Positions 6,630-26,768 of a stretch of 37,987 nucleotides of DNA are shown here, one piece after another (within the stretch, counting starts at the first letter, position 1; every line of letters begins with the position of its first letter). The stretch is taken from contig JAVBXM010000027.1 of assembly GCA_030824585.1 (NCBI GenBank), positions 1-37,987 of the forward strand. Reading direction: 5' to 3'. Source of the DNA: Phaeospirillum sp. (GTDB lineage Bacteria > Pseudomonadota > Alphaproteobacteria > Rhodospirillales > Magnetospirillaceae). Position numbers and translations under genes: made by a program. Below the pieces are notes generated by a model. It was not told the DNA's origin and searched no databases. It saw only the letters and a program-made list of their open reading frames with translations.

Positions 6630-6650
6630 CCGGACCACTTCAATGTCCGG
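6630..6650 (-). terminator. Stem-loop overlapping the end of the FIST kinase gene
   Basis: CCGGAC-N9-GTCCGG spans the TGA stop at 6640 and could end the long amine-oxidation transcript. The stem is only 6 bp and lacks a T-run. Confidence 0.3.
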
Positions 6651-9192
6651 TCTGGCAATACAGAACATAGGTGACGAGGGAGCGCAGGCGGGCCGGATTG
6701 ATCGGTTTGGGCAGGAATTCCAGGCCGCGCCGCTGAAGCTGGTCGGGGATGGCCTTGGACTGGTCCGCCGATATGACCAGGGCCGGCTTTTCCTGTCCCG
6801 CGTGCTTCTTGAGCGTGTCGAGGACGTCCAGCGCGGTCAGCCCGTCTTCCAGATGGAAGTCGATGATCAGCAGGTCGGGGCGCTTCCTGGACAGGGAGAT
6901 GGCCTCTTCCACCGTCGAGGCGGCAAGGGTTTCGCAGCCCCATCCGCCCAGAATGGTGGTGAGGGCGTCGCGGGACTTGATGTCGTCGTCGAGCACCAGT
7001 ATCCGCCGCCCGGCAAGGGGGGCCGACGCCCCTTGAACAAGGGAGGTGCCGCCCGTCGCCCGCGGAAGATGGCCGGTGTCGATGCACACGGCAAAGGTCG
7101 AGCCGCGGCCTTCGGTCGAATGCACGACAAGCTTCAGACCCAGGATATCGGCGAAGTTCTTGGCGATGGTCAGCCCCAGCCCCGAGCCGTGCGAATCGTT
7201 CGGGCCGCCGGCGTCGAGGCTGCGATAGGGTTCGAAGATGTCTTGCAGCCGGTCCTTGGGAATGCCGATGCCGTTGTCGTGGACCTCGACCATGATCTGG
7301 TCGCCGCGCCGGCGGCATCCCACCAGGACGCGGCCGGACCGGGTATAGCGAATGGCGTTGGCGAGGAAATTGCGCAGGATGCGCTGAAGCAAGCCCTTGT
7401 CGGTGTGCAGCACCGCCCCGCTCTGGACGATCCGGAGCGACAGCCCCTTGCGGCGCGCCTGTGGCGCGTACTCGGCCTCCAGTTGCGCCAACTGGGGGCC
7501 GATGGCGAAGTGGGATGGATGGGTCGCGAAACCTCCGGCCTCGAGTTTCGATACGTCGAGGAAGTCGGCCAGCATCTCCTCGGCGGCCTCCAGCGCTCCT
7601 TCGATGCGGCCCAGGAGGGACATTCCCGAGGAGGAGAGGTCCTCTTCCATCAACGCCCCCAGCAGCAGCCGGGCGGCATTCAGCGGCTGCTGGAGATCGT
7701 GGCTGACCGAGGCGAGGAAATTGGTCTTGCTGAGATTGGCCCGCTCGGCCTCCGCCTTGGCCGCCGTCAGGGCAACCTCGACCTCGCGCCGCGCGATCAG
7801 CTCCTGGCTGAGCTTGCGGTTCAGTTCGACGATATCCTCGGTTCGGAGTTGAACCGTCTTTTCCAGCAGGACGTTGTTTTGGAACAGCGAGAACGTGTCG
7901 CTGGGGATGGTCATGCTGCGCTCGATGCGCCGCAGCAGAACCTGGATGGTCTTGCGCAGCTTGGCGTTCTCGTGCTCCAGCCGCTCGCATTCGGTCTGGG
8001 TGTCGGCGGAGGCCGGCTGGATGGGGCCCGCCTCGGGCCGCTCGATCCCCACCGACTGGCCGAAGGCGATGCCGGTAAAGGTGTTGTTGAGGTGCATGCC
8101 GTTGATCTGCTCGCCATAGGCGGAAAAGCCGATCACCCGGTTTTCGCCGAACAGCCTGGCGATGTCCGGTCCCAGGTCGAGCGACGTCGCCTCGACGCGG
8201 CGCATGACGCAGTCGATGCCCAGCACCGCCACCGGCGAGCCGATGGCGGCTTGAACGGCCTCGAAGGACCGCTTGAGGTTGGGGATCATGCCGGTGTTGC
8301 GTCCGATGCTCAGCGGCACGCCCTCGTCGATGGCGCAGGCCATCTTCAGGCTGTTGTCGTCCATGATGTTGCTGGGGCTGCGGGCGTACCACGAGCCGCC
8401 GATGCGCACCACCAGGGGCGGCAGCAGCATCTTCTTCGCCCGCAATTCCTCGATGTCGCATCCCACCATCCGGGCGTATTCCAGCCCGGCGCTGTCGCCG
8501 TTCAGCTCGGTGATGATCCGGCGGTCGGGATCGGCGCCGGTGACGATGGCCTGTTCGCCGTTGCCGACGAAGTGCTGGGACGAGAACACCCTGAACGGCA
8601 GAACGGTGTGAACCAGGGTAAGGGTGGCGGCGTTGGAATAGAAGCGGCCCCGGTACAGGACCTGGGTCGCGGCGATCCTCATGTCGTCGCCGGCCGAGCC
8701 GCCGAACAGCGGCAGGCCGCCCAGCGCCGTGTTCAGGGTGCTGATCACCTGTTCCTCGGCGCAGCACATCCCGTCGATCAGCATCAGGGCGAAGGTGTTG
8801 TGCGACGCGGGCTCGATACCGCGCTGGCGCAACTGGTTCTGCAGGTCCTCGACCACCACCCTGATCTGGGCGGGCTTGAAGTGGGAGATGTCGAGGATGA
8901 TGTCGGATACGGCGACGCAGGCCTCCTCGGCGATGCTGAGCCCGGTCATGCCGCCGTCGGTGTAGCCCGCCGTGGAAATTTCGCCGGCCGTGGTGCAGCC
9001 CACCAGCGCCGTCCCGCCGAAGAACTCCCGGAGCGCCTGTTCCAGCAGGGGCTGGTCGTAGCGCTTGGAGCAGAAGATCGCCGTGAAGTCCGAGCGCTGA
9101 TGCGCAAGGGCGGCGTGAAGCTCGCGAACCGCCTCGAAGGGATCGGATTTCGTCGACGCCGCCTGATGGATCATCGTGTTGGATACAGCCAA
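6640..9192 (-). CDS. Soluble FIST-domain hybrid sensor histidine kinase/response regulator
   Basis: 850 aa from a TTG at 9192 with GAGAGG 7 nt upstream; an ATG at 9174 has no ribosome site. No membrane helices are seen. Residues about 25-235 are FIST_N ('ALVGCTTAGEIS', 'LPLFGGSAGDD'), and about 240-385 FIST_C ending in 'NNTFTGIAFGQSVG'. A coiled coil (395-490) follows, then HisKA with His498 in 'ASVSHDLQQPLN', HATPase_c with 'FLANAIRYTR', 'DNGIGIP' and 'GSGLGLTIAKNF', and a C-terminal receiver (about 722-845) with 'VLDDDIKS', Asp near 774 in 'LLIIDFHLED' and 'LPKPINP'. FIST domains are thought to bind small ligands such as amino acids. It starts 47 nt after the UbiU-like gene, at the end of the amine-oxidation block, so an amine, amino acid or pathway product is a reasonable signal. 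A possible partner is the orphan LuxR regulator at 28562. Confidence 0.88.
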   Translation of the reverse strand: MAVSNTMIHQAASTKSDPFEAVRELHAALAHQRSDFTAIFCSKRYDQPLLEQALREFFGGTALVGCTTAGEISTAGYTDGGMTGLSIAEEACVAVSDIILDISHFKPAQIRVVVEDLQNQLRQRGIEPASHNTFALMLIDGMCCAEEQVISTLNTALGGLPLFGGSAGDDMRIAATQVLYRGRFYSNAATLTLVHTVLPFRVFSSQHFVGNGEQAIVTGADPDRRIITELNGDSAGLEYARMVGCDIEELRAKKMLLPPLVVRIGGSWYARSPSNIMDDNSLKMACAIDEGVPLSIGRNTGMIPNLKRSFEAVQAAIGSPVAVLGIDCVMRRVEATSLDLGPDIARLFGENRVIGFSAYGEQINGMHLNNTFTGIAFGQSVGIERPEAGPIQPASADTQTECERLEHENAKLRKTIQVLLRRIERSMTIPSDTFSLFQNNVLLEKTVQLRTEDIVELNRKLSQELIARREVEVALTAAKAEAERANLSKTNFLASVSHDLQQPLNAARLLLGALMEEDLSSSGMSLLGRIEGALEAAEEMLADFLDVSKLEAGGFATHPSHFAIGPQLAQLEAEYAPQARRKGLSLRIVQSGAVLHTDKGLLQRILRNFLANAIRYTRSGRVLVGCRRRGDQIMVEVHDNGIGIPKDRLQDIFEPYRSLDAGGPNDSHGSGLGLTIAKNFADILGLKLVVHSTEGRGSTFAVCIDTGHLPRATGGTSLVQGASAPLAGRRILVLDDDIKSRDALTTILGGWGCETLAASTVEEAISLSRKRPDLLIIDFHLEDGLTALDVLDTLKKHAGQEKPALVISADQSKAIPDQLQRRGLEFLPKPINPARLRSLVTYVLYCQTGH

Positions 9193-9239
9193 ACCGGCAC
9201 CTCTCCCGGTACGAATCCGCCGGTCCGGCCGAGGCCTGC

Positions 9240-10301
9240 TCACGGTGCCCCCATCACGGCGGCAGGTGCGGGAGCACCGTGGGCGGTGCCGGCTCCGTAG
9301 CGTTCGATAACCTCCCGGTAATAGCACATATAGCCCGTGGCGCAGAGATCCTGTCGCGCCCGCAGCCCTTGGGCAAAGGCGGCCACCGAGGCGTCGCTCT
9401 CCGCGTCCTCCAACCGGTCCAGGGTGGCCCGCACCATCTCGACGCTCTTGAGCTTGCGATCCAGCGGCCCTTCGCGGCCGGCGATCTTGACGGCGGCGAT
9501 GCCCGCCCCGGCCAGGGTGGGAACGGCGCACAGGCCGCAGGGGCCGAACGGCAGGCCGTTGGCGGTGACCGAGAAGCCGCAGCCGAAGCGGTACCACAGC
9601 CACTCGTCATGAAGGGCGTCGTTGGCGGCCAGCGCCTCGATTTCGGTCCCGGCCAGCCGGCGGCCGTCGACCCGGTCGTACTCCACGGCGTAGCGATCGA
9701 GGCAGATGGGCCCCCCCAGCCGCCCGGGCAGATGGATGGTGTGGCAATTGCCCTCCTCGAAGACGCAGCCGTCATTGAGGACGAAGGCCTCGAACTCCAG
9801 TTCGGGCCGGGCGGCGGCGATGGCGGTGATCTCGCCCAGGGTGACGTCGCGCGGCAACACCACGCGGCAGGCGCCCAATTCCCCCAGCAGAGCCGCCGCC
9901 CCGGCGTTGCGGCAGGCCAGCAGCGAACTGGCGTGCAGGCGGATGCCCAGGCCCCGCCGCCCCAGCCGGGCCAGCAGGCCGATGTCGCCGACGATCAGGG
10001 CGTGCCCGCCCATTCCCGCGAAGCGCTCCGCCAGTTCCTGCAATGCCCCCACCTGTTCGTCGGCATAGTGCTGGGCGTTCATCACCAGGGAGATGGTCGC
10101 GCCGTGGTCGGCGGCGATGGCGATGGCCTCGCCCAGTTCCTCGTAGCGGGTCAGGTTGCCGAATGCCCGGCGGTTGACCCCGGCGCTGCGGAACCGGTCG
10201 GTCCAGTCGGTGGGGACGATCCCGCAATAGATCTCGCGGGCGCCGGCCGCCGCCACGGCGGCCACCTCGTCGACGCGGCTAATGGGGGCGACGATTTTCA
10301 T
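9240..10301 (-). CDS. U32 family protein, UbiU-like; candidate O2-independent hydroxylase subunit
   Basis: 353 aa U32 ('peptidase U32') TIM-barrel-type protein. The N-terminus MKIVAPISRVDEVAAVAAAG matches the family's 'AP.s..e...a...GA..iY.G' start ('GAREIYCGI'). Cys179 and Cys186 form C-x6-C, as in UbiU, followed by Cys200, Cys241 and C-x2-C at 255/258; four of these could bind a 4Fe-4S cluster. Characterised U32 members (UbiU/UbiV, RlhA, TrhP) perform O2-independent hydroxylations and none of these is a protease. The gene overlaps the UbiV-like gene by 23 nt, so the two products probably form a heterodimer like UbiU-UbiV. It is the last biogenesis-type gene of the qhp operon. A role in hydroxylating the QhpC tryptophan is inference; an unrelated RNA or quinone substrate is the alternative. 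Confidence 0.75.
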   Translation of the reverse strand: MKIVAPISRVDEVAAVAAAGAREIYCGIVPTDWTDRFRSAGVNRRAFGNLTRYEELGEAIAIAADHGATISLVMNAQHYADEQVGALQELAERFAGMGGHALIVGDIGLLARLGRRGLGIRLHASSLLACRNAGAAALLGELGACRVVLPRDVTLGEITAIAAARPELEFEAFVLNDGCVFEEGNCHTIHLPGRLGGPICLDRYAVEYDRVDGRRLAGTEIEALAANDALHDEWLWYRFGCGFSVTANGLPFGPCGLCAVPTLAGAGIAAVKIAGREGPLDRKLKSVEMVRATLDRLEDAESDASVAAFAQGLRARQDLCATGYMCYYREVIERYGAGTAHGAPAPAAVMGAP

Positions 10302-11169
10302 TCCAGTCTCCGTTGAGGACCAGCCGGTCGATCCAGCCTTCGGCCAGGGCCTCGGACAGGGCCGAGATCATGGACGGCGAATGGCGGTAGAATACGGTGT
10401 TGCCGCGCTGGAAGGTGGGCAGGTCGCCGGCCCCGGCATCCCCGCGCGACAACCCTCCCACATAGACCAGGCATTCCTTCCGGCACTCCTGTCCCGAGGT
10501 GAACTTGCCGCCCGGCGGCTGACCCAGCGATCCGATCCGGCAGGCCCGGCCCTTGACCGAGAAGCCATAGGGGGCGTGAACGGAAACCCGGGCGGTTTCC
10601 GAGCGGAAGTCGCCGGCATCGGCGAACGGCGGAACATCCATCTCGATGCGCGAAATGCCCATCATCGCCAGGACGGAGCCGAACGGGCCGGAATGGACGC
10701 CATGGGGATACAGGCGGGCCCATTCGGCCGAGGGCAGGCGGGGATCCTTGACCATCTTGCACAGCAATCGCCCGGCCACCGGTATCAGGTCGGGGCGGAT
10801 GTCGCGGAGCATGCGCAGCGTCCCCCAGTCGTTGGCCACCACCTCCGTTCCCCGCGCCAATCGCGGCAACAGGGCGGCCAGTGCCGCAAGGCCGGAATCC
10901 GACAGCGCCGGGGTGAGCAGGGCGAAGCCCAGCCCGGCCGCCCCGGCCAGCCCGATTGCCTGCTCCAGTTGCGGCTCGGACGGCAGCAGGGTTTCGCAGA
11001 ATTCCGAACCGAGATGGATGCGGGCCACCCTTTGCCCGTCGACGCCGTTCGGCAACGGCGGGGCCGGCCAGCCGAGCATTCCGGCGCAATCGGCCACCCG
11101 GGGCGGCCCGTTCTCCAGCAGCCGCTCCAGCGTTTTGGCCTGAACCAGGGCCAGGGCCACTTCGCTCAT
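10279..11169 (-). CDS. UbiV-like U32-related protein; candidate O2-independent hydroxylase partner subunit
   Basis: 296 aa. The N-terminal segment 'VARIHLGSEFCETLLPS' aligns by eye with the UbiV 'YLGEAVCSKR' region. Cys58, Cys210, Cys229 and Cys233 have the same logic as the four 4Fe-4S ligands of E. coli UbiV: one early Cys, then C-xn-C-x3-C. 'GTEVVANDWGTLRML' and 'LIPVAGRLLCKMVKDPR' give the barrel strands expected of the family. The ATG at 11169 overlaps the stop of the CcmF-like gene as ATGA and has GGGGAGG upstream. Together with the next gene it resembles a ubiU-ubiV pair, but no UbiT/SCP2 protein is adjacent and ubiquinone genes are absent. The operon setting argues for a substrate in amine dehydrogenase maturation. 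The family match is by motif reading, not by search. Confidence 0.65.
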   Translation of the reverse strand: MSEVALALVQAKTLERLLENGPPRVADCAGMLGWPAPPLPNGVDGQRVARIHLGSEFCETLLPSEPQLEQAIGLAGAAGLGFALLTPALSDSGLAALAALLPRLARGTEVVANDWGTLRMLRDIRPDLIPVAGRLLCKMVKDPRLPSAEWARLYPHGVHSGPFGSVLAMMGISRIEMDVPPFADAGDFRSETARVSVHAPYGFSVKGRACRIGSLGQPPGGKFTSGQECRKECLVYVGGLSRGDAGAGDLPTFQRGNTVFYRHSPSMISALSEALAEGWIDRLVLNGDWNENRRPH

Positions 11170-13184
11170 GCCCGCCTCCCCGAACGCCCGCCAGGCGTCG
11201 CCATGGCCAGCGCCGACAACAGGGCGACCGCAAGGCCCCCCCACATCCACGACACCAGGGGGAACGTCTTGACCACCACCGGCAGGTCATGGGGTTCGCC
11301 GGATTCCAGGGCGGGAAGCCAGACCTGGACGTCGCGCCACAGGCCGCGATGGATGAAGGGATCGATCATATGGCCACCTCCCGAAATGTGTCGGGCATAG
11401 CGGTAGTCGAGAATCTCGCAGACCATCCGCTGGGACCCCCGGAGCCCGGGTGGGAACGGGGTGTCGTCGCGGACATGGACCAATCCCTCGGCCCGCTCGA
11501 CTTCGATGCCGTCGCGTTCCAGCCGCCACACGGCTCGCGCCGCCGAAGGGGCGTTGGCGGCGGGGGGAAAGATGCCGACGCTCTGGCCGTCGGGCAGGGC
11601 GACCAGGGCCGCCGCCTGCTCGGGCCAGCGGATGATCCGCTGGGAGACGCTGTCGAAGACGGTGGCGGCAAGGAGCGATGCCAGCCCCGCGGCCATGCCC
11701 AGATGCAGGCTGGCCGCCAGGGCGGGCCTTGCCTGACGGTCCCGCAATGCCGTTGCAAGCCGCACCGCGCAGGCCAGTCCCAGATAGGCCAGCGCCGCCC
11801 ACAATCCGCCGATCCAGGCGAGGTGCGCGACGGTGCCCGCGGCGGTGATGCCGTCGCCGCCGAAATTGGCCGTCACCGGATCAAGGGCGATGGTCAGCCC
11901 CACCGCCAGGATGGCCGCCGCCGTCGCCGGGCGGCGGTGGCGGGGCAGCAGGGCGTGGCCGCCGGCCAGCGCCAGGGCCGCCACGGGCGGCAGCAGCCAG
12001 AGATTGATGGCCACCGGGTCGGGTTCCCACTGGGCGAAGGCCTGTTGCAGGGCCTTGGCCTCGTCGGGGGTGGCCCAGCGCAGCAGCATGTCCAGGAACG
12101 GCTTCAGGCTGCCCGGCCGGGGGAGATCGAGCAGCGCGGCAACCAGGGCATGCCCCAGGTGAAGCACCGCGATGGCGGCGCATCCCGCCATCAGCGCCAC
12201 GGCCATGTCGAGGGCGTCGCGGGGCTGCGCCGCCGGGGTGGCGGGCCGCCGCCACGCCGCCATGGCCGCCGCCACGGCCAGGACCGCCGCCAAACCGGCC
12301 AGCAGCGGCGCCGAGGTGTCGCCCACGTAGCGATGCGACGATGCCAGCATGGGCAGGCGGATGACGGCCATGCTGGCCAGGGCGAGGATGGCGGCGGCCA
12401 GTCCCAGCAGGGGATGCAGGACGGCAAAGCGCAGCCCCCGGCTGCGGCGGTGGGCTTCGTGGGTGTGAATCTGGGCGGTCAGGACCATCCAGACCGCGAA
12501 GATCGCGGTCTGCGCCGGGTCCCAGTGCCAGAACTGCCCGAAGGTGAAGTCCTGGTAGGCCCACCACATGCCGGCGGCAAGGCTGGCGCCCAGGATGATC
12601 CAGGCCGTCCGGACGCAGCCTCCCGCCAGATCGCTCCACTGGACCGAGCCCGGCCGGGCCAGGGCCTGGCAGGCGGCGCCGGCCGGGGCGATGATCAGCG
12701 CCAGGGCGGCCAGCAGCAGCGGGGGATGGATAGCCATCCACGGAGAGGCGAGATGGGAGTTGTGGCGGGGTCGCGGCCCGTTCAGGGCCTCGGCGGGCGT
12801 GACGTCGAAGGGACTCCACATCACCGTGCCGATGGCGAAGGCCAGGGCCAGCGCCTGGGCGCCGCGCCCGGCCCAGCCCTCGCCGGCGCTCCACCGCGCT
12901 CCCATCCCGGCGAGCAGCAGGGCCATCAGCAGCAGGGTTCCCTGGTCGCTGGCCCACAGGCCGGCCAGCCGCAACGGCCACGGCTGATCGCCGCCGGCAT
13001 GGCGGAACACCAGGGCGTTGCCGATGTCGCCGGTCAGGAAGCGGATTTCCAGCAAGACGACCGCGCCGGCTAGAAGCGCCACGGCGCATCCCCCCGCCAG
13101 GCGGCATGGACGGCCGGGCCCCGCCGCCACGGCCACGGCCAGCGCCGGCACGGCCAGCAGGGGCAGGGCGGCCTCAACCGGCAT
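11166..13184 (-). CDS. CcmF-like cytochrome c heme lyase subunit paralogue
   Basis: 672 aa polytopic membrane protein with the full CcmF layout. Early 'LWASDQGTLLLMALLLAG' matches the CcmF WGxHEGSLLL loop. 'WMAIHPPLLL' (His about 153) is the first periplasmic histidine. The WWD segment is 'MWWAYQDFTFGQFWHWDP' (about 206-222), then 'AQIHTHEA' (His about 240), 'SSHRYVGD' (His about 284) and 'VAHLAWIGG' (His about 454); these correspond to the four heme-liganding histidines of CcmF. The C-terminal periplasmic beta region and last helix 'WMWGGLAVALLSALAM' are also present. CcmF attaches heme to CxxCH motifs. I start at ATG 13184 (GGGAG upstream, 11-nt overlap with qhpE); an in-frame ATG at 13211 is possible. 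Encoded inside the qhp operon, it probably serves the diheme QhpA. It is a lone CcmF, with no CcmH or CcmE beside it. Confidence 0.85.
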   Translation of the reverse strand: MPVEAALPLLAVPALAVAVAAGPGRPCRLAGGCAVALLAGAVVLLEIRFLTGDIGNALVFRHAGGDQPWPLRLAGLWASDQGTLLLMALLLAGMGARWSAGEGWAGRGAQALALAFAIGTVMWSPFDVTPAEALNGPRPRHNSHLASPWMAIHPPLLLAALALIIAPAGAACQALARPGSVQWSDLAGGCVRTAWIILGASLAAGMWWAYQDFTFGQFWHWDPAQTAIFAVWMVLTAQIHTHEAHRRSRGLRFAVLHPLLGLAAAILALASMAVIRLPMLASSHRYVGDTSAPLLAGLAAVLAVAAAMAAWRRPATPAAQPRDALDMAVALMAGCAAIAVLHLGHALVAALLDLPRPGSLKPFLDMLLRWATPDEAKALQQAFAQWEPDPVAINLWLLPPVAALALAGGHALLPRHRRPATAAAILAVGLTIALDPVTANFGGDGITAAGTVAHLAWIGGLWAALAYLGLACAVRLATALRDRQARPALAASLHLGMAAGLASLLAATVFDSVSQRIIRWPEQAAALVALPDGQSVGIFPPAANAPSAARAVWRLERDGIEVERAEGLVHVRDDTPFPPGLRGSQRMVCEILDYRYARHISGGGHMIDPFIHRGLWRDVQVWLPALESGEPHDLPVVVKTFPLVSWMWGGLAVALLSALAMATPGGRSGRRA

Positions 13185-13869
13185 GGAGATGCTCCCGCTG
13201 GGGGCCGACATGGGTCGCTTCCGCTTCCAGCCGGGCCAGCACGTGGTCGTTGGTCGCCTCGGGGACGCGAAGCAGCAGGCGCGCCAGCCGCGCGGTAACG
13301 CGGGCGGTCGCCACGCTGGCTCCCGCCACCATTCCCCGCCGCCACTGCGCCGTCGGCGCGTCGGTCAGGCGGGGATTGGCTCCGAACCGGGCGCGGCCGT
13401 TCCCGATCACCGAAATGTCGTTGGCATGGCAGCGTCCGTCGCCGGTCACCGGGACGATTCCGGGATAGGCGGCGGGAAAGACCATGGTTCCCATGGCGGG
13501 AACGGCGGCCACCAGCAGGGCGCCCGCCTGGATGGCGGACGAGCACGCCTCGGCGAGGACGCGGCGGTCCTCGGCCAGCCCGAAGCTCATGTTGATGATC
13601 CGGGCGCCGTTCTCGACCAGCCAGCGCAGGCCGGCGGCGATGGCGGCGGCGGACGACACGCCGTCGGCGTCGAAGACCTGGGCGTTGATGATGGGGGCCG
13701 ACGGACTATCGGCGTGGATCAGTTCGGCCAGGGCGGTGCCGTGTCCCATCAGGTCGGGGCGGGCGGGGCCGTCGGCGATTTCACCGTTCCCGTCCATCCA
13801 GAAGCGGCGGGACAGCCGGGTGCTGCCGGCCAGATGCCCGGACAGGCCGGTATCGAGCAGGCCGATCAT
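13174..13869 (-). CDS. qhpE: Subtilisin-like serine protease QhpE, QhpC leader peptidase
   Basis: 231 aa, a minimal subtilase without signal peptide or prodomain, as expected for a cytoplasmic enzyme. The catalytic triad is Asp6 in 'MIGLLDTGLSGH', His43 in 'DLMGHGTALAEL' and Ser185 in 'MVAGASVATARVTARL'; 'ARIINMSFGLAED' is the usual strand near the oxyanion Asn region. In studied quinohemoprotein amine dehydrogenase systems QhpE cuts the 28-residue leader from the crosslinked QhpC before export. The ATG at 13869 overlaps the qhpF stop as ATGA. The same reading frame stays open far upstream across qhpF and qhpB, but that part is only GC-rich antisense-phase sequence. Confidence 0.85.
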   Translation of the reverse strand: MIGLLDTGLSGHLAGSTRLSRRFWMDGNGEIADGPARPDLMGHGTALAELIHADSPSAPIINAQVFDADGVSSAAAIAAGLRWLVENGARIINMSFGLAEDRRVLAEACSSAIQAGALLVAAVPAMGTMVFPAAYPGIVPVTGDGRCHANDISVIGNGRARFGANPRLTDAPTAQWRRGMVAGASVATARVTARLARLLLRVPEATNDHVLARLEAEATHVGPQREHLHAG

Positions 13870-15524
13870 GCCACCGCCTCCGTGGCGCGCGGCAGCAGCC
13901 CGGCGGGGGTCAGCTCCAGTATCCGCCCGGCTCCCTCCAGCGCGTCGGCGTGGTGCGAGATGACGATCCTGGTCCGGTCGAAGAACAGGGTATCGATGGC
14001 GCGGGCGATGCGGCGGCCGGAATCGTGATCCACCGCCGAGACCGCCTCGTCGAGCACCAGGACCAGCGGATCGAGGAGCAGGGCGCGAGCGATGGCCAGA
14101 CGCTGGCGTTCTCCGCCCGACAGGGTGGCGCCGCGCTCGCCCACCATGGTCTCGAGGCCGAGATGGGTGATTTCGGCCAGCCCGGCCACCCGCGCCACCG
14201 CCTGATCGTCGGCGTCGGGGGCGGCGAGGCGGATGTTGTCGGCAATGGTTCCCGCCACCACCGGACTGTCCTGCGCCACCACCGCCACCCGCCGCCGCAA
14301 TTCGGCCAGGTCCAGGTGGCGCAGGTCCATGCCGTCCAGCAAGATGCGGCCATGGTCGGGATCGTAATGGCGGTGCAGGAGATCGATCAGGGTGCTCTTG
14401 CCGATACCGGACGCTCCGACCAGCCCGACCTTGACCCCGGCGGGAATCGTGGCGTCCAGACCGCTGAACACCGGCCCGTCCCCGCCATAGGAGAAGGCGA
14501 CGGCCTCGAAGCGGATGGTTCCGGCCGCCGTGGCGGGCAGGGGGACCGGGACGGCCGGGTTCTCCACCGCCACCGTCTCGTCGAGAATCTCCATGACCCG
14601 GTCGAGGCTGACGCGGGCGCGGCGCTGGGCCAGGATCAGCCCCAGCAGGGTGTTGACCGGCCCCACGGCGCGTCCGAGATACATGGTGAAGGCGACCAGG
14701 GCGCCGACGGTCATGGCGTCGTCCATCACCAGGACGCCTCCCGCCAGGAAAACCGCCGCGGCGGCCAGCCCGTTCAGCAGGCCGGGAATGCCGCCGGCCA
14801 CCGCCGAGAACAGCTCGGCGCGGCGCAGGTCGTCGAGATAATGGCGGTTGAGGGCCTGGAAGCGGGCGGCGTCGCGGGCCTCTCCCCCCATGGCCTGGAT
14901 CAGCTTCATGGATTGCAGGCTGTGAACCAGGAAGCCGGACATTTCGCCGTTGCGTTCGCGCAGGCGCCGGACCAGCCGCTCCATCCGGGGCCGGAGGCGC
15001 CGGGCCACCAGGACCTGCAGCGGCAGCAGCACGAAGGCCGGGGCCAGCAGTTGGGGGGCCAGGGCCGCCATCACCGCCAGGGTTCCGGCCAGGACCAGCA
15101 CGGCATTGACCGTCGCCAGCAGCGTGTCGACGATGAAGCGCTGGACCTCGGCCACGTCGCCGTCGATCCGCGACAGGATCTCGCCGGTACTGCGCCGGGC
15201 GAAATAGGTGGGCGGCAGGCGCTGGAGATGGCCGAACACCCTTTCGCGCAGCGCGAACAGCACCTTGGCCGACAGGGTCAGGTAGTGCCAGCGGTTGAAG
15301 GCCCCCACTCCCAGGGCCAGCACGGCCACCCCGAGAATCAGGCCGCAGGTCAGGGCGATCACCGGCATCTGCCGGGCGATCAGCCCCTCGTCGATCAGAT
15401 GCTTGGCGAGCCAGGGCTGCGCCAGGGCCAGGGCCGAGGCGACCGCCGACGCGCCGAGCACCAGGGCCGCCGATCCCAGATGCGGCCGCAGAAGGTGGAA
15501 CAGGGGCCGGAAACCGTGGGCCAT
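13866..15524 (-). CDS. qhpF: ABC exporter QhpF (fused membrane and ATPase domains)
   Basis: 552 aa half-transporter. Residues 1-310 hold six membrane helices of the type I exporter fold, with 'YFARRSTGEILSRIDGD', the usual coupling region. The ATPase domain has Walker A 'GASGIGKST', Q-loop 'VAVVAQDSP', signature 'LSGGERQRLAIARAL', Walker B 'LVLVLDEAVSAVD' and the H-loop His in 'ISHH'. As a homodimer it would carry the crosslinked gamma subunit to the periplasm, the role known for QhpF. The ATG at 15524 is 6 nt past the qhpB stop. There is no N-terminal C39 peptidase domain, which agrees with leader removal by the separate QhpE. Confidence 0.9.
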   Translation of the reverse strand: MAHGFRPLFHLLRPHLGSAALVLGASAVASALALAQPWLAKHLIDEGLIARQMPVIALTCGLILGVAVLALGVGAFNRWHYLTLSAKVLFALRERVFGHLQRLPPTYFARRSTGEILSRIDGDVAEVQRFIVDTLLATVNAVLVLAGTLAVMAALAPQLLAPAFVLLPLQVLVARRLRPRMERLVRRLRERNGEMSGFLVHSLQSMKLIQAMGGEARDAARFQALNRHYLDDLRRAELFSAVAGGIPGLLNGLAAAAVFLAGGVLVMDDAMTVGALVAFTMYLGRAVGPVNTLLGLILAQRRARVSLDRVMEILDETVAVENPAVPVPLPATAAGTIRFEAVAFSYGGDGPVFSGLDATIPAGVKVGLVGASGIGKSTLIDLLHRHYDPDHGRILLDGMDLRHLDLAELRRRVAVVAQDSPVVAGTIADNIRLAAPDADDQAVARVAGLAEITHLGLETMVGERGATLSGGERQRLAIARALLLDPLVLVLDEAVSAVDHDSGRRIARAIDTLFFDRTRIVISHHADALEGAGRILELTPAGLLPRATEAVA

Positions 15525-15530
15525 GGCGGG

Positions 15531-16622
15531 TTACCGCTGAACCATTCTGATCCAGGTCCCCCCCATGTCGTGCCCGTCGGGCAGGTTGATCTCGCCGATG
15601 CGTTCCAGCGTCTCGGTGGAGTAGACCCCGATATCGCTGATGGTTCCCGCCACGTAGACTTCCTTGCCGTCGCCGGAAATGTTCAGGCAGTAATAGGTAT
15701 GGGGCAGGGTCACCCGCTTGACCAGTTGGTTGGTGGCGGTGTCGGTCTTGGAGAGCGTGTTGTAGACCGAGAAGACCTCGTTGCGGCGGACCGGATTGAC
15801 CACCGACGAGAAGATCACGGTGCTGGTGTTCTCGAACTCCTCCATAGTGACCTTGCCGGTGGTGAAATCCAGGGTCAGCATGCCGGTGCGGGCCGCCGCC
15901 GGGTCCTTGGGATCGAGATCGGTGCGGGTGGCGAAGTAGGGATTGGCGAAGACCTTGGCCTGCTCGTAGTGGTTCCATACCCCGAAGACGTCGGGAACGG
16001 CGTAATTGGGACGCTCCCAATTGGCCACCTTGTCCACCTTGAGGACCTTGCCGTCCCTGGGATCGAGGGTGTGGATGTCCCAGTTGACGGCATAGAGTTT
16101 GGTGCCGTCGGGGGCCATGAACAGTCCGGTGGTCCGGCGGGGCACCGGCAGGATGCGGTCGGGCCTGGCGTTCAGCCCGGAATCGGTGCGGTAGACGGCG
16201 ATGCCGACGTCCTGCACCTCGTATTCGCCCTGGCCGAGGCGGACGGGCGAGCGCATCACGAACAGTTCCTTGCCGTCGGGGCTGATCTCCAGCCCGAACA
16301 TGTTGCGGGCACGGATGCTGCCGTCGCTGAGATCGGCGCGGAACACCTCCTTGCCGCTGTCCAGGTCGATACCGACCAGGCTGCCCCAGTGGTTGGTGAT
16401 CACGTAGGCGACCTTGCCGTCGGGCGAGGGCACGATACCCAAAGGCGCGCCGGGGCCGGCGATGGGGTAGGAACGCTCCACCTTGCGGGCGGCGGGGTCC
16501 ACCAGCACCAGGGTGTTCGGCTTGGTCGAGGTCAGGATGTATTCCTTGCTCCACGCGGCCACCGGATCGAGCGACAACGCGCCAAGCGCCAGCAGCGCGG
16601 CGGCGAAGACCTTGGACTTCAT
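15531..16622 (-). CDS. qhpB: Quinohemoprotein amine dehydrogenase beta subunit
   Basis: 363 aa. A signal peptide (MKSKVFAAALLALGALSLDP, cleaved near AWS/KEY) sends it to the periplasm. The mature part is a seven-bladed beta-propeller with YVTN-like strands such as 'PNTLVLVDPAARKV', 'VPSPDGKVAYVITNH', 'ISPDGKELFVMRS', 'MAPDGTKLYAVNWD' and 'ISGDGKEVYVAGT'. In known enzymes this subunit closes over the small gamma subunit and helps form the amine-binding pocket. It lies 16 nt downstream of qhpC with GGGGAG before the ATG. No cofactor motif is expected or seen. The order A-D-C-B is the standard qhp order. Confidence 0.93.
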   Translation of the reverse strand: MKSKVFAAALLALGALSLDPVAAWSKEYILTSTKPNTLVLVDPAARKVERSYPIAGPGAPLGIVPSPDGKVAYVITNHWGSLVGIDLDSGKEVFRADLSDGSIRARNMFGLEISPDGKELFVMRSPVRLGQGEYEVQDVGIAVYRTDSGLNARPDRILPVPRRTTGLFMAPDGTKLYAVNWDIHTLDPRDGKVLKVDKVANWERPNYAVPDVFGVWNHYEQAKVFANPYFATRTDLDPKDPAAARTGMLTLDFTTGKVTMEEFENTSTVIFSSVVNPVRRNEVFSVYNTLSKTDTATNQLVKRVTLPHTYYCLNISGDGKEVYVAGTISDIGVYSTETLERIGEINLPDGHDMGGTWIRMVQR

Positions 16623-16638: not shown

Positions 16639-16959
16639 TCATTTCTTGTTGTAGACGGATTGCAGCTTGCGCCAGTCGCGCATGGCCGAGGGGACCTCGG
16701 TGCTCCAGTCCGGATGGGTGTTGATGGTGTCGGGCACCTGGACGGGCCACCAGCACGGGTCGGAACAGCCGTAGAGATCGGCCTCCACCGGCTGGCACAG
16801 GGCCGCGATCCCGCCGAACGGGTCGACCTCCCAGCCGGGATCGAGGGTCGAGGTGCAGCCGGTGACCACCTGCATGACGCGGGCCTCCGGGGCCTTGCCG
16901 TCCTCGGCGGCGCGTTCGACCTGCTCGGCCTTGCGGTTGATGGGTTTCAGATGCTTCAT
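16639..16959 (-). CDS. qhpC: Quinohemoprotein amine dehydrogenase gamma subunit, CTQ cofactor carrier
   Basis: 106 aa. Every modified residue of the Paracoccus enzyme is found with a constant offset of 28: Cys35-Glu44, Cys55-Asp61 and Cys69-Asp77 for the three Cys-to-acidic thioether bridges, and Cys65 with Trp71 for cysteine tryptophylquinone (mature numbering 7/16, 27/33, 41/49, 37/43). The core reads '[16 protein letters not shown]'. The first 28 residues are therefore the cytoplasmic leader that QhpD recognises and QhpE removes; there is no Sec signal. The ATG overlaps the qhpD stop as ATGA, coupling the substrate to its radical SAM enzyme, and GGGAG precedes it. This is a peptide that needs crosslinking, Trp dihydroxylation, cleavage and export before it works. 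Confidence 0.96.
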
Positions 16960-18380
16960 GAGTCGCTCCCTCGAGGTCCCGCCCTGCGGGCCATGAAAGT
17001 AGGGTTCCCCGCCATGATTCCGGCATAGATGGCGATGCCGAGATCCACCCATTCCCGCATCAGGTCGCAGTAATGGTCGGTGGGGCGGAACAGGTCGCCG
17101 TGGCGGGCGTAGGATTCGTGATAGCAGCCCCCGGCGCACAGATGGCGGGCGTGGCAATCGCCACAGAAGCCTTCGGTGCGGTCCAGCGCGCGGTCGACGA
17201 AGGCCGCGACGGCCGCATGGTCGAGGCCGGTATCCACATGGCCGAAGGTCTCCTGGCCGCTGCCGGCGAAGCGGTGGCACAGCGCCAGGGCGCCCGTGGT
17301 GTCGACCGCCAGCAGCGCCACCGCCGCGCCGCAGGGGATCAGCTTGCTGCTGCCCTCGTGCAGGGCGGTCATCATCTGGCCGATATTGGAAAAGCCGATG
17401 TCGCGCCCTTCCAGGGCCGCGTCGCGCCACGCCAGGGCCAGGGTCTTGAGGTTGTCGAACACCACCCGGGTGTCGTCGTGGCCCAGCCCGAATCCGGCGG
17501 GCAGGCCGGCGGTAACCGGCGCGAAGCCCACCTCGGCGAAGCCGATCTCGTTCTTCAGGTGGTGGTGGATGCCGGCGACGTCGGTCATGCCGGCGGCCAG
17601 GGTGACCCGCGCCCCCACCGGCCGGAGGCGATAGCGTTCCAGCAGCCGGCGCGCCTTGTCGGCCACCACGGCATAGGTGCCGGAACCGCCGATGGTCCGG
17701 CGGTTGCGGTCGTGAATCTCCGCCGGGCCATCCATGCTGACGGTGATGGCGAAGCGGTGGGCGGCCAGGAAATCCACCGCCGCATCGTCCAGCAGGGTGG
17801 CGTTGGTGGTCAGGGAATAGTCGAAGGCCTTGCCGGTCTCGATGCCGCGGCGGTCGGCATAGGCGACTGTATGACGGATCAGCGGCAGGGCGGTCAGCGG
17901 CTCTCCGCCGAAGAAGGTCAGGTTGAGGCGCCGGCGCCCGCCGGATTCGCGGACCAGCAAGTCCACCGCCTTCTCGGCGTGGGCCCGAGACAGCCGGGCG
18001 GCGGCGGCGGGACGGCTGAGATCCTCCTTGTAGCAATAGGAACAGGCCAGATTGCAGCCGGTGGTCAGGTTGAGCACCAGGGTCGTCAGGGCGTTGTCCG
18101 GCAAGGCCGGCCTGGGCTTGGGACGCGGCGCCGCCGCCCTCGGCCTGACGGCCTCCAGGGCGGCGAGGTCGCGAAGGGCCTCCTCGACCGCGTCCGCGCC
18201 GAATTGCCCGTCGAGAGGCGAAGCGCCGACGGCGTTCCCGCCGGCCAGCCGGTCCATGACCGCGCCGGCCACCGCGTCCAGCTCGAACAGGCTGCTGGTC
18301 GGGACGTGGAACAGAATCCTGCGCCCATCGACCAGCATGTCGCGCACATCCGCATCGGCCCTGCGCCAGATCGTATCCAC
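16956..18380 (-). CDS. qhpD: Radical SAM/SPASM thioether-forming enzyme QhpD
   Basis: 474 aa from a GTG at 18380 with AAAGGGG 7 nt upstream; in-frame ATGs at 18422/18419 would overlap qhpA and lack a good site. The N-terminal 90 residues ('[20 protein letters not shown]') resemble a RiPP recognition-type region. The radical SAM cluster is Cys109, Cys113 and Cys116 in '[15 protein letters not shown]', with 'FFGGEPL' and 'TTNATLL' following. The C-terminal SPASM region has 'CHRF', '[20 protein letters not shown]' and 'HYCDLM' for two auxiliary 4Fe-4S clusters. In known systems it makes three successive sulfur-to-methylene carbon thioether bonds in QhpC. It lies 22 nt past qhpA and overlaps qhpC by 4 nt. 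Confidence 0.94.
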
Positions 18381-18402
18381 GGCTTTTCCCCTTTCTGCCG
18401 GC

Positions 18403-19962
18403 CTACCGGATCTCGGCATCATTCCAGCGCTGGGGGGCGATCACAAGGTGAGCGCTGCCCTCGACCATGGCGCTGCCCTCGGCCACCTGGGCCTTGATCA
18501 GCAGATTGGCGATGTTGTTGAGATTCTTCCGCGCCGGATTGGGACCCGCCCCGGCGGGCATGAACAGGCCGTCGGGCCGCAAGACGCCGCCGAATTTGGC
18601 ATCCTGGTCGTGTTCGGCGGTTTCGTCGAAATTGCCGACCGACCATTTGGCGGGTACGGGGCCGATCCGGAGATTGTCGGCGGCGTAGGCCACGGCGTCG
18701 AACTGGGCCGGGGCGGGGGGAACCGGGCCGCCATTGCCGCCAAGCCGCGCCACCATGGTTTCGGGCTCGACCTTGAGCGTGGCGATCCTGTCATAGACCA
18801 CCAGCGGCGCCTTGGCCTTGCCCACGGAAATCTCGCGCGTCCCGGTGGCGGCGCCGGCCGAGGCCGAAACCAGCACGGTGACGGCTTCGGGGGTGGTGGC
18901 GATCACCTTTTCCACCACGAGGCCGTCGCCAAGCGACAGGTCCTTGGCCAGTGCGCTGCCGGCAACGACCAGACGGGTGGTCTCGCCCACCTTGAGGGCG
19001 GCGGGAGACAGCCCGGCGATGGCCTCCTTCCCCCGTACCGCGACCATGCTGGCGCCGATGGCGTCCTGATCGTCCAGATACCAGCGTCCCTCCAGGCGAT
19101 TGCCGTCGGCGGAGGCTTGCAGCACTTCGCTGACCTGCTCGCCGCCCAGCATGGTGCTGCCGCGCCACTCGAAGCCGGTATAGACCACCGAGCGCCCCTC
19201 GCCGGTCTCGCTGGTGCCGTCGGCCCAGGTCAGGCGGTAGCTGAGCTGGTAGGAATCCGCCGCGTTGCGCTTGACCTCCATCCGGCCCCAGTAATCTCCC
19301 TTGCCCGGCCGGTGGCCGGCGACGGTCCATCCGCCCGACAGGTTGGGGGAACGGTGGGTCTTCCAGGCTTTCCAGGCGGTGGAGTCGAGCGGCCATTTGG
19401 CCGCCAGCTTTTCCGGCAGCGGGCCGGAAACCATTTCCCACCATTTGCGGTCGCGCGCCGTGGCCTGGTATTCGGCGGTCGGCCACTGGCCGAGATGCAT
19501 GTGGGCGAGGCGGCGCCACTCCGCCGCGGTGCGGCGCTGCAGGCCGATCCGGGCATAGGAGTGACAGCGGGCGCACAGCGTCGCCACATCGGAATCGTCC
19601 GGCGTTTCCACCACCGTCCGCCGCTCCAGGGCGTAGCGGAAGGGAGCCGCCTCCTCGGGGGCGAGGCCCTGGCGGTCGGCGAGATGCTTCACCACGGTCC
19701 GGGCCTCGGAATCGGTGAGGAGCAGGCCGTGCCACTGGCGCATGCGCCGCACGGTCATGGCCCAGCCCTCGGGCGACTTGCGCTGCTCATCGATGCGGAA
19801 CAGCCCGCCCGTGGTGGTACGGGGGTGGCAGGTCGAGCATTTGGTGTTGAGCACCGCCTCCGCCGAAGGCTCCTTGGCGCCGGCGGAAGGGGCGGATGCC
19901 AATCCCGCCGACGCCAGGGCGAGGATCGCCAGCGGCATGAAACGCCAGGACTTATGCTTCAT
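18403..19962 (-). CDS. qhpA: Quinohemoprotein amine dehydrogenase alpha subunit, diheme cytochrome c
   Basis: 519 aa precursor. The signal peptide (MKHKSWRFMPLAILALASAG, cleaved near AGA/KEP) directs it to the periplasm. Two heme c sites are present: CSTCH at 42-46 and CARCH at 130-134, each in a cytochrome-like N-terminal domain. The rest is beta-sheet domains typical of the family ('LSPAALKVGETTRLVVAGSAL', 'APQRWNDAEIR' at the end). It takes electrons from CTQ in QhpC and passes them to a soluble acceptor such as a cytochrome or azurin. The ATG at 19962 has GGAG 7 nt before it; the longer ORF upstream runs into the aldehyde dehydrogenase gene and is not real. It is preceded by a strong intercistronic hairpin. 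Confidence 0.94.
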   Translation of the reverse strand: MKHKSWRFMPLAILALASAGLASAPSAGAKEPSAEAVLNTKCSTCHPRTTTGGLFRIDEQRKSPEGWAMTVRRMRQWHGLLLTDSEARTVVKHLADRQGLAPEEAAPFRYALERRTVVETPDDSDVATLCARCHSYARIGLQRRTAAEWRRLAHMHLGQWPTAEYQATARDRKWWEMVSGPLPEKLAAKWPLDSTAWKAWKTHRSPNLSGGWTVAGHRPGKGDYWGRMEVKRNAADSYQLSYRLTWADGTSETGEGRSVVYTGFEWRGSTMLGGEQVSEVLQASADGNRLEGRWYLDDQDAIGASMVAVRGKEAIAGLSPAALKVGETTRLVVAGSALAKDLSLGDGLVVEKVIATTPEAVTVLVSASAGAATGTREISVGKAKAPLVVYDRIATLKVEPETMVARLGGNGGPVPPAPAQFDAVAYAADNLRIGPVPAKWSVGNFDETAEHDQDAKFGGVLRPDGLFMPAGAGPNPARKNLNNIANLLIKAQVAEGSAMVEGSAHLVIAPQRWNDAEIR

Positions 19963-19988
19963 TCTCGATCTCCGAAAACCGTCTGCGG

Positions 19989-20019
19989 GGACGGTGGCGC
20001 CATTGGCGCGCCACCGTCC
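19989..20019 (-). terminator. Strong stem-loop between aldehyde dehydrogenase and qhpA
   Basis: Two perfect 11-nt arms (GGACGGTGGCG / CGCCACCGTCC) with a 9-nt loop begin 7 nt past the dehydrogenase stop and end 27 nt before the qhpA start. There is no T-run directly after it. It could be a partial terminator, a processing site or a stabiliser of the mRNA ends, tuning qhpA against the dehydrogenase. Confidence 0.5.
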
Positions 20020-20026
20020 GCCCTTC

Positions 20027-21532
20027 CTAGTATGCCACGCAGACGGACTTGGTTTCGGTGTAGGCGTCGATGGCCGTCTTGCCCAATTCCCGTCCCCAGC
20101 CGGACTGCTTGTAGCCGCCGAACGGCATGGCGGCGTCCACCAGGCCATGGCAATTGACCCAGACGGTGCCGGCCTTGAGCGCCGGGGCGATGCGATGCAT
20201 CTTGGAAAGGTCCCGGGTCCAGATGCTGGCGCCCAGGCCGTAGATGCTGTCGTTGGCCGCCGCGACCACCTCGTCCAGGTCGGTGTAGGGCATGGCGACC
20301 ACCACCGGGCCGAAGATTTCCTCGCGCACCACCTTCATGTTCGGCTTGGTGTTGACCAGTACGGTCGGCTCGACGAAATAGCCGGGCTGGTCCAGGCGGC
20401 GGCCGCCGGCCACGGCGCAGGCGCCCTCGGCCAGTCCGCTGTCGATGTAGCCGCACACCCGCCGGGCCTGTTCTTCCGACACCAGGGGGCCCATCTGGGT
20501 GGTGGGCGACATGCCGTGACCCAGCGAGAACTGCTTGGCGGCCGCGGCCACGCCGTCGACCACCTTGTCGAACACCGATTTGTGGACGTAGAGGCGCGAT
20601 CCGGCGGCGCAGACCTGGCCGTGATTGAAGAAGATGGCCATGGCGGCGCCGGGGATGGCGATATCGAGGTCGGCGTCGTCGAGCACGATGGCCGGGGATT
20701 TGCCGCCCAGTTCGAGGGACACCTTCTTCAGATTGCCGAGAGCCGCCTGGGTGATCAGCTTGCCCACCTCGGTGGAGCCGGTGAAAGCCACCTTGTCGAC
20801 CCCGTGATGGGCGCTGATGGCGGCGCCGGCGGTGTGGCCGTAGCCGGGCAGGATGTTGACCACGCCGGCGGGATAGCCCGCCTCCATGATCAGCTCGCCC
20901 AGGCGCAGCGCGGTCAGCGGCGTCTGCTCGGCCGGCTTCAGGATCGAGGTGCAGCCCGACGCCAGGGCGGGAGCCAGCTTCCACGCGGCCATCAGCAGCG
21001 GGAAGTTCCAGGGAATGATCTGGCCGACCACCCCCACCGGCTCGCGCACGGTGTAGGCGAAGAACTTGCCCTCGGGCACGTAGGGAAACGACACCGGGAT
21101 GGTCGCCCCCTCGTTCTTGGTCGGCCAGCCGGCCATGTAGCGGCAGAAATCCACCGCCGCCACCACGTCCAGATGGCGGGCCATCATCACCGACTTGCCG
21201 TTGTCGAGGGATTCCAGCTCGGCCAACTGATCGGCGTTGGCCTCGATCAGGTCGGCCAGGCGGTGCAGCAGCCGCTCGCGGTCGCTGGCCTTCATGTCGC
21301 GCCAGGCCTTGTTCTCGAAGGCGGCGCGGGCGGCGATCACCGCGCGGTCCACATCGGCGGCGTCGGCTTCGGCGACGGAGGCGATCTGGCGGCCGGTCCC
21401 CGGATCGTAAACGGGAAAGGTCTTGCCGGATGCCGCCTCGACCCACTGGCCGCCAATCAGCAGATTTAGTTTCTTTCCAAGAAAATTCTTGGTGTCTTGA
21501 CGGATTTTTCCGGCCAGTTCATCTGGATTCAT
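20027..21532 (-). CDS. NAD(P)-dependent aldehyde dehydrogenase
   Basis: 501 aa. It oxidises aldehydes to acids in the cytoplasm. The family landmarks are all present: 'VVGQIIPWNFPLLMA' (Asn176), Lys199 in 'SILKPAEQTPL', 'FTGSTEVGK', general base Glu274 in 'LELGGKSPAIV', nucleophile Cys308 in 'FFNHGQVCAAGSRLYV', and 'REEIFGPVV'. The style (FNHGQVC, 'SGWGRELG') is that of the phenylacetaldehyde/betaine aldehyde dehydrogenase-like group. It starts at the ATG at 21532 (AAGGG 8 nt upstream) rather than the GTG at 21541. It would take the aldehyde formed by QhpABC, as PeaE does in the Pseudomonas phenylethylamine (pea) operon. A 91-nt gap before it holds an operator-like repeat, so it probably has its own promoter. 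Confidence 0.93.
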   Translation of the reverse strand: MNPDELAGKIRQDTKNFLGKKLNLLIGGQWVEAASGKTFPVYDPGTGRQIASVAEADAADVDRAVIAARAAFENKAWRDMKASDRERLLHRLADLIEANADQLAELESLDNGKSVMMARHLDVVAAVDFCRYMAGWPTKNEGATIPVSFPYVPEGKFFAYTVREPVGVVGQIIPWNFPLLMAAWKLAPALASGCTSILKPAEQTPLTALRLGELIMEAGYPAGVVNILPGYGHTAGAAISAHHGVDKVAFTGSTEVGKLITQAALGNLKKVSLELGGKSPAIVLDDADLDIAIPGAAMAIFFNHGQVCAAGSRLYVHKSVFDKVVDGVAAAAKQFSLGHGMSPTTQMGPLVSEEQARRVCGYIDSGLAEGACAVAGGRRLDQPGYFVEPTVLVNTKPNMKVVREEIFGPVVVAMPYTDLDEVVAAANDSIYGLGASIWTRDLSKMHRIAPALKAGTVWVNCHGLVDAAMPFGGYKQSGWGRELGKTAIDAYTETKSVCVAY

Positions 21533-21609
21533 GATTGTCACCCTTTATTAAGCCGTTTTGTTGGTATCAAATCTTGCTTGCATTAGGCCAAGAACCTATC
21601 GCCAACGCG

Positions 21610-21627
21610 ATAACCACTTCTGGTTAT
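21610..21627. promoter_or_regulatory. Operator-like inverted repeat upstream of the aldehyde dehydrogenase gene
   Basis: ATAACC-ACTTCT-GGTTAT, perfect 6-nt arms with a 6-nt spacer, at the stop codon of the YCF48-like gene and 78 nt before the dehydrogenase start. The identical arms and spacer length recur at 28443-28460. It is a probable activator site, perhaps for the LuxR-type regulator encoded at 28562. Confidence 0.6.
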
Positions 21628-22610: not shown

Positions 22611-22621
22611 GTTCATCTCCG

Positions 22622-24982: not shown

Positions 24983-25015
24983 GGAAAAACTCCTGGAATA
25001 ACCATCAAGGAAAAT

Positions 25016-25051
25016 GGCCGCTCCGGCGCGGGGAAGGAGTCCGGAGCGGCC
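25016..25051 (-). terminator. Strong hairpin between the DUF1302 and RND genes
   Basis: Perfect 11-bp arms (GGCCGCTCCGG / CCGGAGCGGCC), 14-nt loop, 8 nt past the DUF1302 stop, followed on the minus strand by ATTTTCC. It is a probable partial terminator that lowers expression of the transporter relative to the outer-membrane protein. Confidence 0.6.
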
Positions 25052-25059
25052 GTGCCTGA

Positions 25060-26751: not shown

Positions 26752-26768
26752 TTCAGGTCCCCCCTTGC

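Follow-up and report, generated by a model that had tools for sequence, protein, structure and literature searches.

Closest described systems and the locus

Quinohemoprotein amine dehydrogenase (QHNDH) bears a cysteine tryptophylquinone (CTQ) in its gamma subunit, QhpC. In the described system both oxygens are placed on Trp43 of crosslinked QhpC by QhpG, a flavin adenine dinucleotide (FAD) enzyme that takes them from O2 and acts in a QhpC-QhpD-QhpG complex, and expression of the enzyme requires all of qhpABCDEFGR (PMC7876137). We analyzed a stretch of 37,987 nucleotides from Phaeospirillum sp. (contig JAVBXM010000027.1 of assembly GCA_030824585.1), referred to below as the window, which is one of the contigs of a genome of 4.94 Mb and 99.9% completeness. 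Its complete qhp operon ends in two genes for U32-type proteins, here called U32A (UbiU-like) and U32B (UbiV-like) and together the pair; the names QhpU and QhpV are suggested. The co-occurrence of the pair with qhp, its complementation with QhpG and the intact substrate make it a well supported reading of these genomes that the pair replaces QhpG or, in some species, accompanies it.

U32 proteins have been implicated in the O2-free hydroxylation of aromatic rings and bases (PMC11574389). UbiU and UbiV (YhbU and YhbV of Escherichia coli) form a heterodimer with one [4Fe-4S] cluster each, ligated by C169, C176, C193 and C232 and by C39, C180, C193 and C197, respectively (PMC6747719). RlhA and TrhP depend on prephenate and on three conserved, essential residues, a Glu and two Cys (E161/C169/C176 and E162/C170/C177; PMC6599085). 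The pair resembles UbiU-UbiV in that two adjacent genes encode U32-type proteins and U32A keeps three of the four cluster ligands, but it forms a separate clade, is linked to qhp, has the fourth UbiU ligand replaced and four extra Cys in U32A, and has the spacing C-x18-C-x3-C in U32B. It shares with RlhA and TrhP the U32 family and their Glu and two Cys (E171/C179/C186 in U32A); unlike these longer single proteins with RNA substrates, it consists of two genes tied to a protein substrate. With QhpG (PDB 7ctq) it would have in common the step and the substrate, and it is encoded in or near the same operon, yet it is unrelated in sequence to that flavin- and O2-dependent enzyme and would use iron-sulfur (Fe-S) clusters and no O2. 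MauG, LodB and GoxB also serve tryptophylquinone biogenesis, in other enzymes, but differ from the pair: MauG is a diheme protein, LodB and GoxB are flavoproteins, and the target is a mono-hydroxylated Trp (PMC7876137).

The two genes, which share 23 bases of overlap, lie on the minus strand at the end of the operon qhpA-D-C-B-F-E, CcmF-like gene, U32B, U32A:

9240..10301, minus strand: U32A, UbiU-like member of the pair ('QhpU'); passes the gathering score of Pfam Peptidase_U32 (PF01136) with 117.2 bits, cut-off 22.4
10279..11169, minus strand: U32B, UbiV-like partner ('QhpV'); four Cys in UbiV-like order

An earlier interpretation made from the letters alone, called here the sequence-only reading, had placed two overlapping genes at 9240..11169 as the end of a qhp operon, and both the coordinates and the operon were borne out. 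The operon assignment rests on QhpA, B, D and E, all of which score over curated cut-offs, and on a QhpC with the CTQ residues.

Distribution of the pair and QhpG

The profile used to search for QhpG consisted of two rows, one of which hits the peptidyl tryptophan dihydroxylase structure PDB 7ctq with an E value of 1.4e-67. Searched with this profile, the whole window genome (G000; below, G and L numbers denote genomes and loci) gave no match at E 0.001 among 54 candidates scored. The same profile found strong matches in five of six other qhp genomes; two of these matches are rows of the profile itself, and the other three are independent of it (E 8e-97, 2e-88 and 7e-69). The sixth, G313, a fragmentary genome whose qhp genes lie on a contig of 5.4 kb, gave weak hits only. 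Whole-genome searches at an E limit of 1e-20 likewise found no QhpG in the genomes of L050-L054 and L072. A QhpG hidden elsewhere in the window genome or in these six was thus rejected as an explanation. The sequence-only reading had reported no qhpG in the window, where we also saw none, and had called for the genome-wide search, which agrees with it.

Scanning species genomes with an alignment of QhpD provided the best 80 qhp loci (at least 80 exist), among which the closest relative of the window locus is that of Paramagnetospirillum caucaseum. Eight of these 80 contain the pair: five lack QhpG (L051, L052, L053, L054 and L072) and three, all from Thauera, have it (L095, L114 and L119). No pair was seen in the other 72 within the locus stretch examined. 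The L050 stretch ends inside the CcmF-like gene; in the same genome, a fragment of U32A sits right at the end of a different contig. For whole-genome tests 50 of the 80 loci were chosen and 49 searched (L076 was excluded); the 30 left out comprise 27 from Pseudomonas and one each from Marinobacterium, Amphritea and Paracoccus. The pair was scored in whole genomes by U32A alone, at a threshold of at least 400 bits (next best across samples no more than 129), and U32B adjoined U32A wherever the locus was seen whole. True matches in the 49 genomes scored 404-628 bits and the next best at most 88. QhpG was found in 41 of the 49 and not found in 8. U32A was present in 6 of the 8 genomes without QhpG (L050-L054, L072) versus 7 of the 41 with it (Fisher p 0.0025; this and the other Fisher tests are too sharp, as the genomes are related). 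The two remaining genomes without QhpG are small metagenome-assembled genomes (MAGs) of 2.1 and 2.9 Mb with neither system, and the seven with both QhpG and U32A are four Thauera, Motiliproteus, an Emcibacter MAG and a Pseudomonadales MAG.

The pair is rare in broader samples. In the class of the window a true U32A match occurs in 1 of 385 genomes, the window's own (a further match, of 94 bits, belongs to an ordinary UbiU), and QhpD exceeds its cut-off in 7 of the 385. In the class of a Thauera genome U32A was found in 2 of 369, that Thauera and G765, whose qhp operon lies about 28 kb from U32A and has no QhpG in the 20 kb around it. Within the window's order, 8 of 248 genomes have U32A at 400 bits or more and seven of these eight, the window genome included, have QhpD; genomes of the same genera without U32A were left out of the QhpD and QhpG searches of this sample.

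For the Thauera family the same 150 genomes, a sample not chosen for qhp, were searched for all three proteins, and 14 had U32A, 10 QhpG and 20 QhpD. QhpG was counted as present at 359 bits or more. In 24 further genomes, one of them the pair-only G896 (127.5 bits), the best hits of 82-138 bits were assigned to other FAD enzymes. U32A occurs in 14 of the 20 genomes with qhpD and in none of the 130 others (Fisher p 2e-15, indicative only since the genomes are related). Ten of the 20 have the pair only, six QhpG only, four both and none neither (p 0.011). Two QhpD genes are present in three of the four genomes with both systems, and G901 combines one QhpG with two genes each for QhpD and U32A.

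When both sets were combined (49 + 20 - 2 shared, plus the window genome), 68 unique qhp genomes had been tested for both systems; G765, G1103 and G1033 were left out of the QhpG search. The pair alone is found in 17, QhpG alone in 40, both in nine and neither in two. The survey for mutual exclusion that the sequence-only reading had suggested thus revealed complementation, with exactly one system in 57 of the 68, but not a strict exclusion. On a QhpD tree of 72 rows, for which the program warns of long-branch joins, the state 'pair only' (17 rows) requires seven changes, some of them to 'both', and falls in at least four separate places. No U32A homologue was found at E 1e-20 in a plasmid collection.

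The presumed substrate

The window's QhpC has every residue that becomes crosslinked or part of CTQ in the characterised enzymes, namely C7, E16, C27, D33, C37, C41, W43 and D49 in the mature numbering, which omits a leader of 28 residues. Leader length, Asp33 and Trp43 are given in PMC7876137. Nine QhpC positions (crosslink, CTQ and neighbouring) are identical in all 47 sequences compared; the source genomes have the pair alone, both systems (L193 of G845 among them), QhpG alone or, in two cases, neither (L058, L109), and L200 (G1103) was left out of the QhpG search. Because these residues do not vary, genomes that lack QhpG still have the quinone to make, and the same dihydroxylation must therefore occur in genomes with and without it.

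Cysteines, folds and relatives of the pair

The sequence-only reading had described one member as a U32 protein with a C-x6-C motif, and this description stands: the motif is C179-x6-C186, whose two Cys align with the first two of the four Fe-S ligands in E. coli UbiU. E171, C179 and C186 are invariant in the clade and equal the essential positions of RlhA and TrhP at the same spacing. U32A also retains C200, and three of the four UbiU ligand columns are Cys in 30 of 30 clade members (L151, at a contig end, was omitted from the U32A tree and the Cys counts, and the distant L202 from the Cys counts). In correction of that reading, the clade has no equivalent of the fourth UbiU ligand and instead has four invariant Cys with no counterpart in UbiU (C255, C258, C320 and C326). 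C255 and C258 may substitute for the missing ligand, and the four extra Cys suggest a further cluster or a cluster of new geometry. C241 was rejected as a fourth ligand, being Cys in only 24 of 30 members.

UbiU is the closest NCBIfam model to U32A, which scores 72.6 bits against the UbiU equivalog NF047963, below its cut-off of 440; the genome's own UbiU scores 516.8. An hhalign comparison with the UbiU profile gave 99.9%, with the alignment running along UbiU. In U32B, C58, C210, C229 and C233, the four residues named in the sequence-only reading, are present in every one of the 31 clade members counted. Their order is that of UbiV, but the spacing is C-x18-C-x3-C rather than C-x12-C-x3-C, and the C180 column is three positions off in the alignment. 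U32B matches no Pfam or NCBIfam model, and none of the 29 members searched has an NCBIfam match at E 0.01. Its profile is closer to UbiV than to UbiU, and hhalign against the QhpG profile gave 0.4%.

Among solved structures, U32A found no U32 chain at E 1 as a single sequence and, as a profile, the U32 protein 5d88 at E 0.047 only; E. coli UbiU as a query returned nothing of use, nor did U32B, whose Foldseek rows were unspecific triosephosphate isomerase (TIM) barrels. The predicted structures of both members of the pair are TIM barrels with a U32 fold like that of 5d88.

In both trees, the relatives of the pair form a clade of their own on a long stem, apart from UbiU and UbiV (100/100). The window genome has ubiT, ubiU and ubiV adjacent on another contig, each over its NCBIfam cut-off; a search for such a separate set had also been advised. 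The genome's ubiquinone set is therefore distinct from the pair.

Proposed function

We consider it likely that the pair is a heterodimeric, O2-independent Fe-S enzyme, a peptidyl-tryptophan hydroxylase dedicated to QhpC. QhpD would make the thioether crosslinks in QhpC, a complex of U32A and U32B would then add one or both oxygens to Trp43, and the 6,7-dihydroxy-Trp would later become cysteine tryptophylquinone. We infer complex formation, cluster binding and the reaction itself; that the reaction would proceed without O2 is suggested by homology to UbiUV, RlhA and TrhP, and the oxygen donor would probably be prephenate, as reported for hydroxylation dependent on these proteins. In the window species and its near kin the pair would act in place of QhpG, while in Thauera and a few others it would act alongside QhpG, perhaps as an oxygen-free branch. 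Such co-occurrence could possibly represent a dual O2-dependent and O2-independent arrangement, as for 5-hydroxyuridine (ho5U) in tRNA (TrhP/TrhO) and for ubiquinone.

With less assurance, though still on the favorable side, we propose a broader generalization: a U32 heterodimer would hydroxylate a protein side chain without O2, with prephenate-derived oxygen and probably an extra Fe-S site (C255, C258, C320 and C326), forming a fully anaerobic route to tryptophylquinone, and pairs that lie outside qhp, of the type seen in L150 and L151, would be sister enzymes with other substrates.

A number of observations weigh against the proposed function. At the column of UbiU ligand C232, U32A has Leu and none of 30 clade members has Cys. 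U32B has no match to the UbiV equivalog NF047965, which the genome's own UbiV passes (370.8, cut-off 275), and its hhalign match to the UbiV profile is modest (65.6%, E 5.8e-5). The eighth U32A genome of the window's order, G1033, a 67%-complete MAG, has no QhpD match at E 1e-25. Same-clade pairs also occur away from qhp: in an Emcibacter MAG (L150:5785-10972) the pair ends a run with an NAD-dependent epimerase and a B12-binding radical S-adenosylmethionine (SAM) protein, where it is possibly a sister enzyme with another substrate, and in a Pseudomonadales MAG (L151:3896-7693) it is directly downstream of the alpha and beta subunits of a Rieske oxygenase, with U32A cut by the contig end. Both of these genomes also have qhp and QhpG. 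QhpG accompanies the pair in 9 of the 26 pair-bearing qhp genomes tested, and this co-occurrence leaves room for a second, unrelated role of the pair. The sequence-only reading had listed frequent co-occurrence of the two systems among its refuting outcomes; we see in it, rather, the possible dual arrangement described above. The idea of the sequence-only reading that the pair replaces QhpG is thus supported by co-distribution and by the intact CTQ precursor, but does not extend to these nine. We know of no U32 enzyme that acts on a protein, and to our knowledge this would be the first O2-free side-chain hydroxylase of this sort. According to a review, direct evidence for U32 catalysis of prephenate-dependent hydroxylation is itself still lacking (PMC11574389).

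The pair might instead modify QhpC or a partner in another way, for example by supporting thioether formation or by acting on another residue, with the Trp oxygens supplied by an unrecognised oxygenase. No search was made for oxygenases unrelated to QhpG, and both the nine genomes with pair and QhpG and the four extra Cys of U32A, which hint at chemistry beyond that of UbiU, could be accommodated in this way. We regard it as unlikely, given that at least one of the two systems is present in 66 of 68 qhp genomes and exactly one in most, and that the QhpC crosslink residues are the same under either. A second UbiU-UbiV set, made for ubiquinone or another small quinone and located in the operon by chance, would agree with the closeness of U32A to UbiU and with U32B being closer to UbiV than to UbiU. 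The genome's own ubiT-ubiU-ubiV set, the separation of the clade from UbiU and UbiV and the tracking of qhpD by the pair in the Thauera family make such a second set very improbable, and it was rejected.

Even less credit can be given to two further explanations. The name of the Pfam family, Peptidase_U32, would suit peptidases that process QhpC or degrade misfolded subunits, but a leader protease, QhpE, is already present and is retained in pair-bearing operons seen whole, the complementation is with QhpG, and the Fe-S ligand positions and catalytic Glu of the hydroxylase branch are kept. The failure to find QhpG in pair-only genomes could in principle reflect its simple loss from lineages whose QHNDH works without a quinone, CTQ having been lost; we find this scarcely believable, as the pair-only genomes examined show no variation at C37, W43 or any of the six thioether positions, and QhpD, E and F are retained in the pair-only operons seen whole.

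An amine dehydrogenase of this kind reportedly starts anaerobic amine degradation in a denitrifier, going by the title of a study by Schmitt et al. in J Bacteriol in 2019. This conflicts with the use of O2 by QhpG, and a U32 pair in the place of QhpG would, if true, resolve the conflict. Bacteria could then make the tryptophan-derived quinone of amine dehydrogenase without air, and U32 chemistry would be extended from quinones and RNA to proteins. QhpC, QhpD, U32A and U32B would also offer a small, co-expressible system in which the unsolved oxygen-donor chemistry of U32 proteins could be followed on a defined peptide by mass spectrometry. Our literature search, which did not extend to subscription papers and preprints, found no paper joining U32 proteins with tryptophylquinone or amine dehydrogenase, and the available portions of the QhpG paper contain no mention of the pair or of qhp operons without qhpG (PMC7876137).

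Gene order and neighboring genes

The order qhpE-U32B-U32A or qhpE-CcmF-U32B-U32A was found in alpha-, beta- and gammaproteobacteria. No CcmF-like gene separates qhpE from the pair in L053 and L054, and a homologue of this gene is present in L034, a qhp locus without the pair. A single-strand run qhpA-D-C-B-F-E-U32B-U32A is found in eight further loci, all of the Thauera family (L188, L189, L193, L194 and L196-L199). The pair lies upstream of qhpA, at a distance of about 2 kb, in L153 and L195 (divergently in the latter) and follows a second qhpE in the Motiliproteus locus L149. In other members of the Thauera family it is either 12-30 kb away from qhpD but still on its contig (L187, L190 and L192) or on another contig (L191). 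U32B precedes U32A in 31 of 32 loci, with an overlap of up to 35 bases or a gap of at most 81, and the order is reversed in the distant L202. The Thauera genome G430 has two qhp clusters on one contig (L119 and L153), with some 14 kb between their qhpD genes; each cluster has its own pair, and one has QhpG beside it. In L192 (6937-12911, G849) the pair is next to an aldehyde ferredoxin oxidoreductase gene, with qhpD about 12 kb away; by eye, there is also an aldehyde dehydrogenase-like frame by the pair, with Rnf-like frames further on.

The other genes of the window operon and its upstream neighbour are as follows:

11166..13211, minus strand: CcmF/NrfE-like cytochrome c assembly protein, accessory; Pfam Cytochrom_C_asm, E 6e-13
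13174..13872, minus strand: qhpE, subtilisin-like leader protease; NF049966, 223.7 bits, cut-off 165
13866..15524, minus strand: qhpF, ATP-binding cassette (ABC) exporter; ABC membrane and ATPase domains and operon position
15531..16622, minus strand: qhpB, beta subunit; TIGR03907, 409 bits, cut-off 223
16639..16959, minus strand: qhpC, gamma subunit bearing CTQ; from the translation, CTQ pair C65 and W71 (mature C37 and W43)
16956..18422, minus strand: qhpD, radical SAM thioether-forming enzyme; TIGR03906, 602.8 bits, cut-off 453
18403..20148, minus strand: qhpA, diheme alpha subunit, with the true start probably near 19962 (by eye); TIGR03908, 588 bits, cut-off 274
20027..21541, minus strand: aldehyde dehydrogenase, upstream operon neighbour on the same strand; Pfam Aldedh, E 9e-179

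A further QhpD-like radical SAM protein is encoded elsewhere in the genome (G000:C213:10043-11155) and scores 191 bits with TIGR03906, below the cut-off. FNR-like sequences of the form TTGAT-N4-ATCAA have 15 matches on both strands of the window versus 5.2 expected, a number reached in 0 of 100 shuffles, and one of them (21557-21570) is just upstream of the aldehyde dehydrogenase gene. All 15 carry two mismatches and are too weak to be used as evidence of FNR-type regulation, which was set aside. Directly downstream of the pair (6640-9603) is a sensor histidine kinase with FIST and receiver domains, a possible amine or redox sensor. MMPL, DUF1302 and DUF1329 genes, together with the aldehyde dehydrogenase gene, flank qhp in the window (20027-28133); the same set flanks the pair in L190:2196-10447 and could be an amine or aldehyde uptake module.

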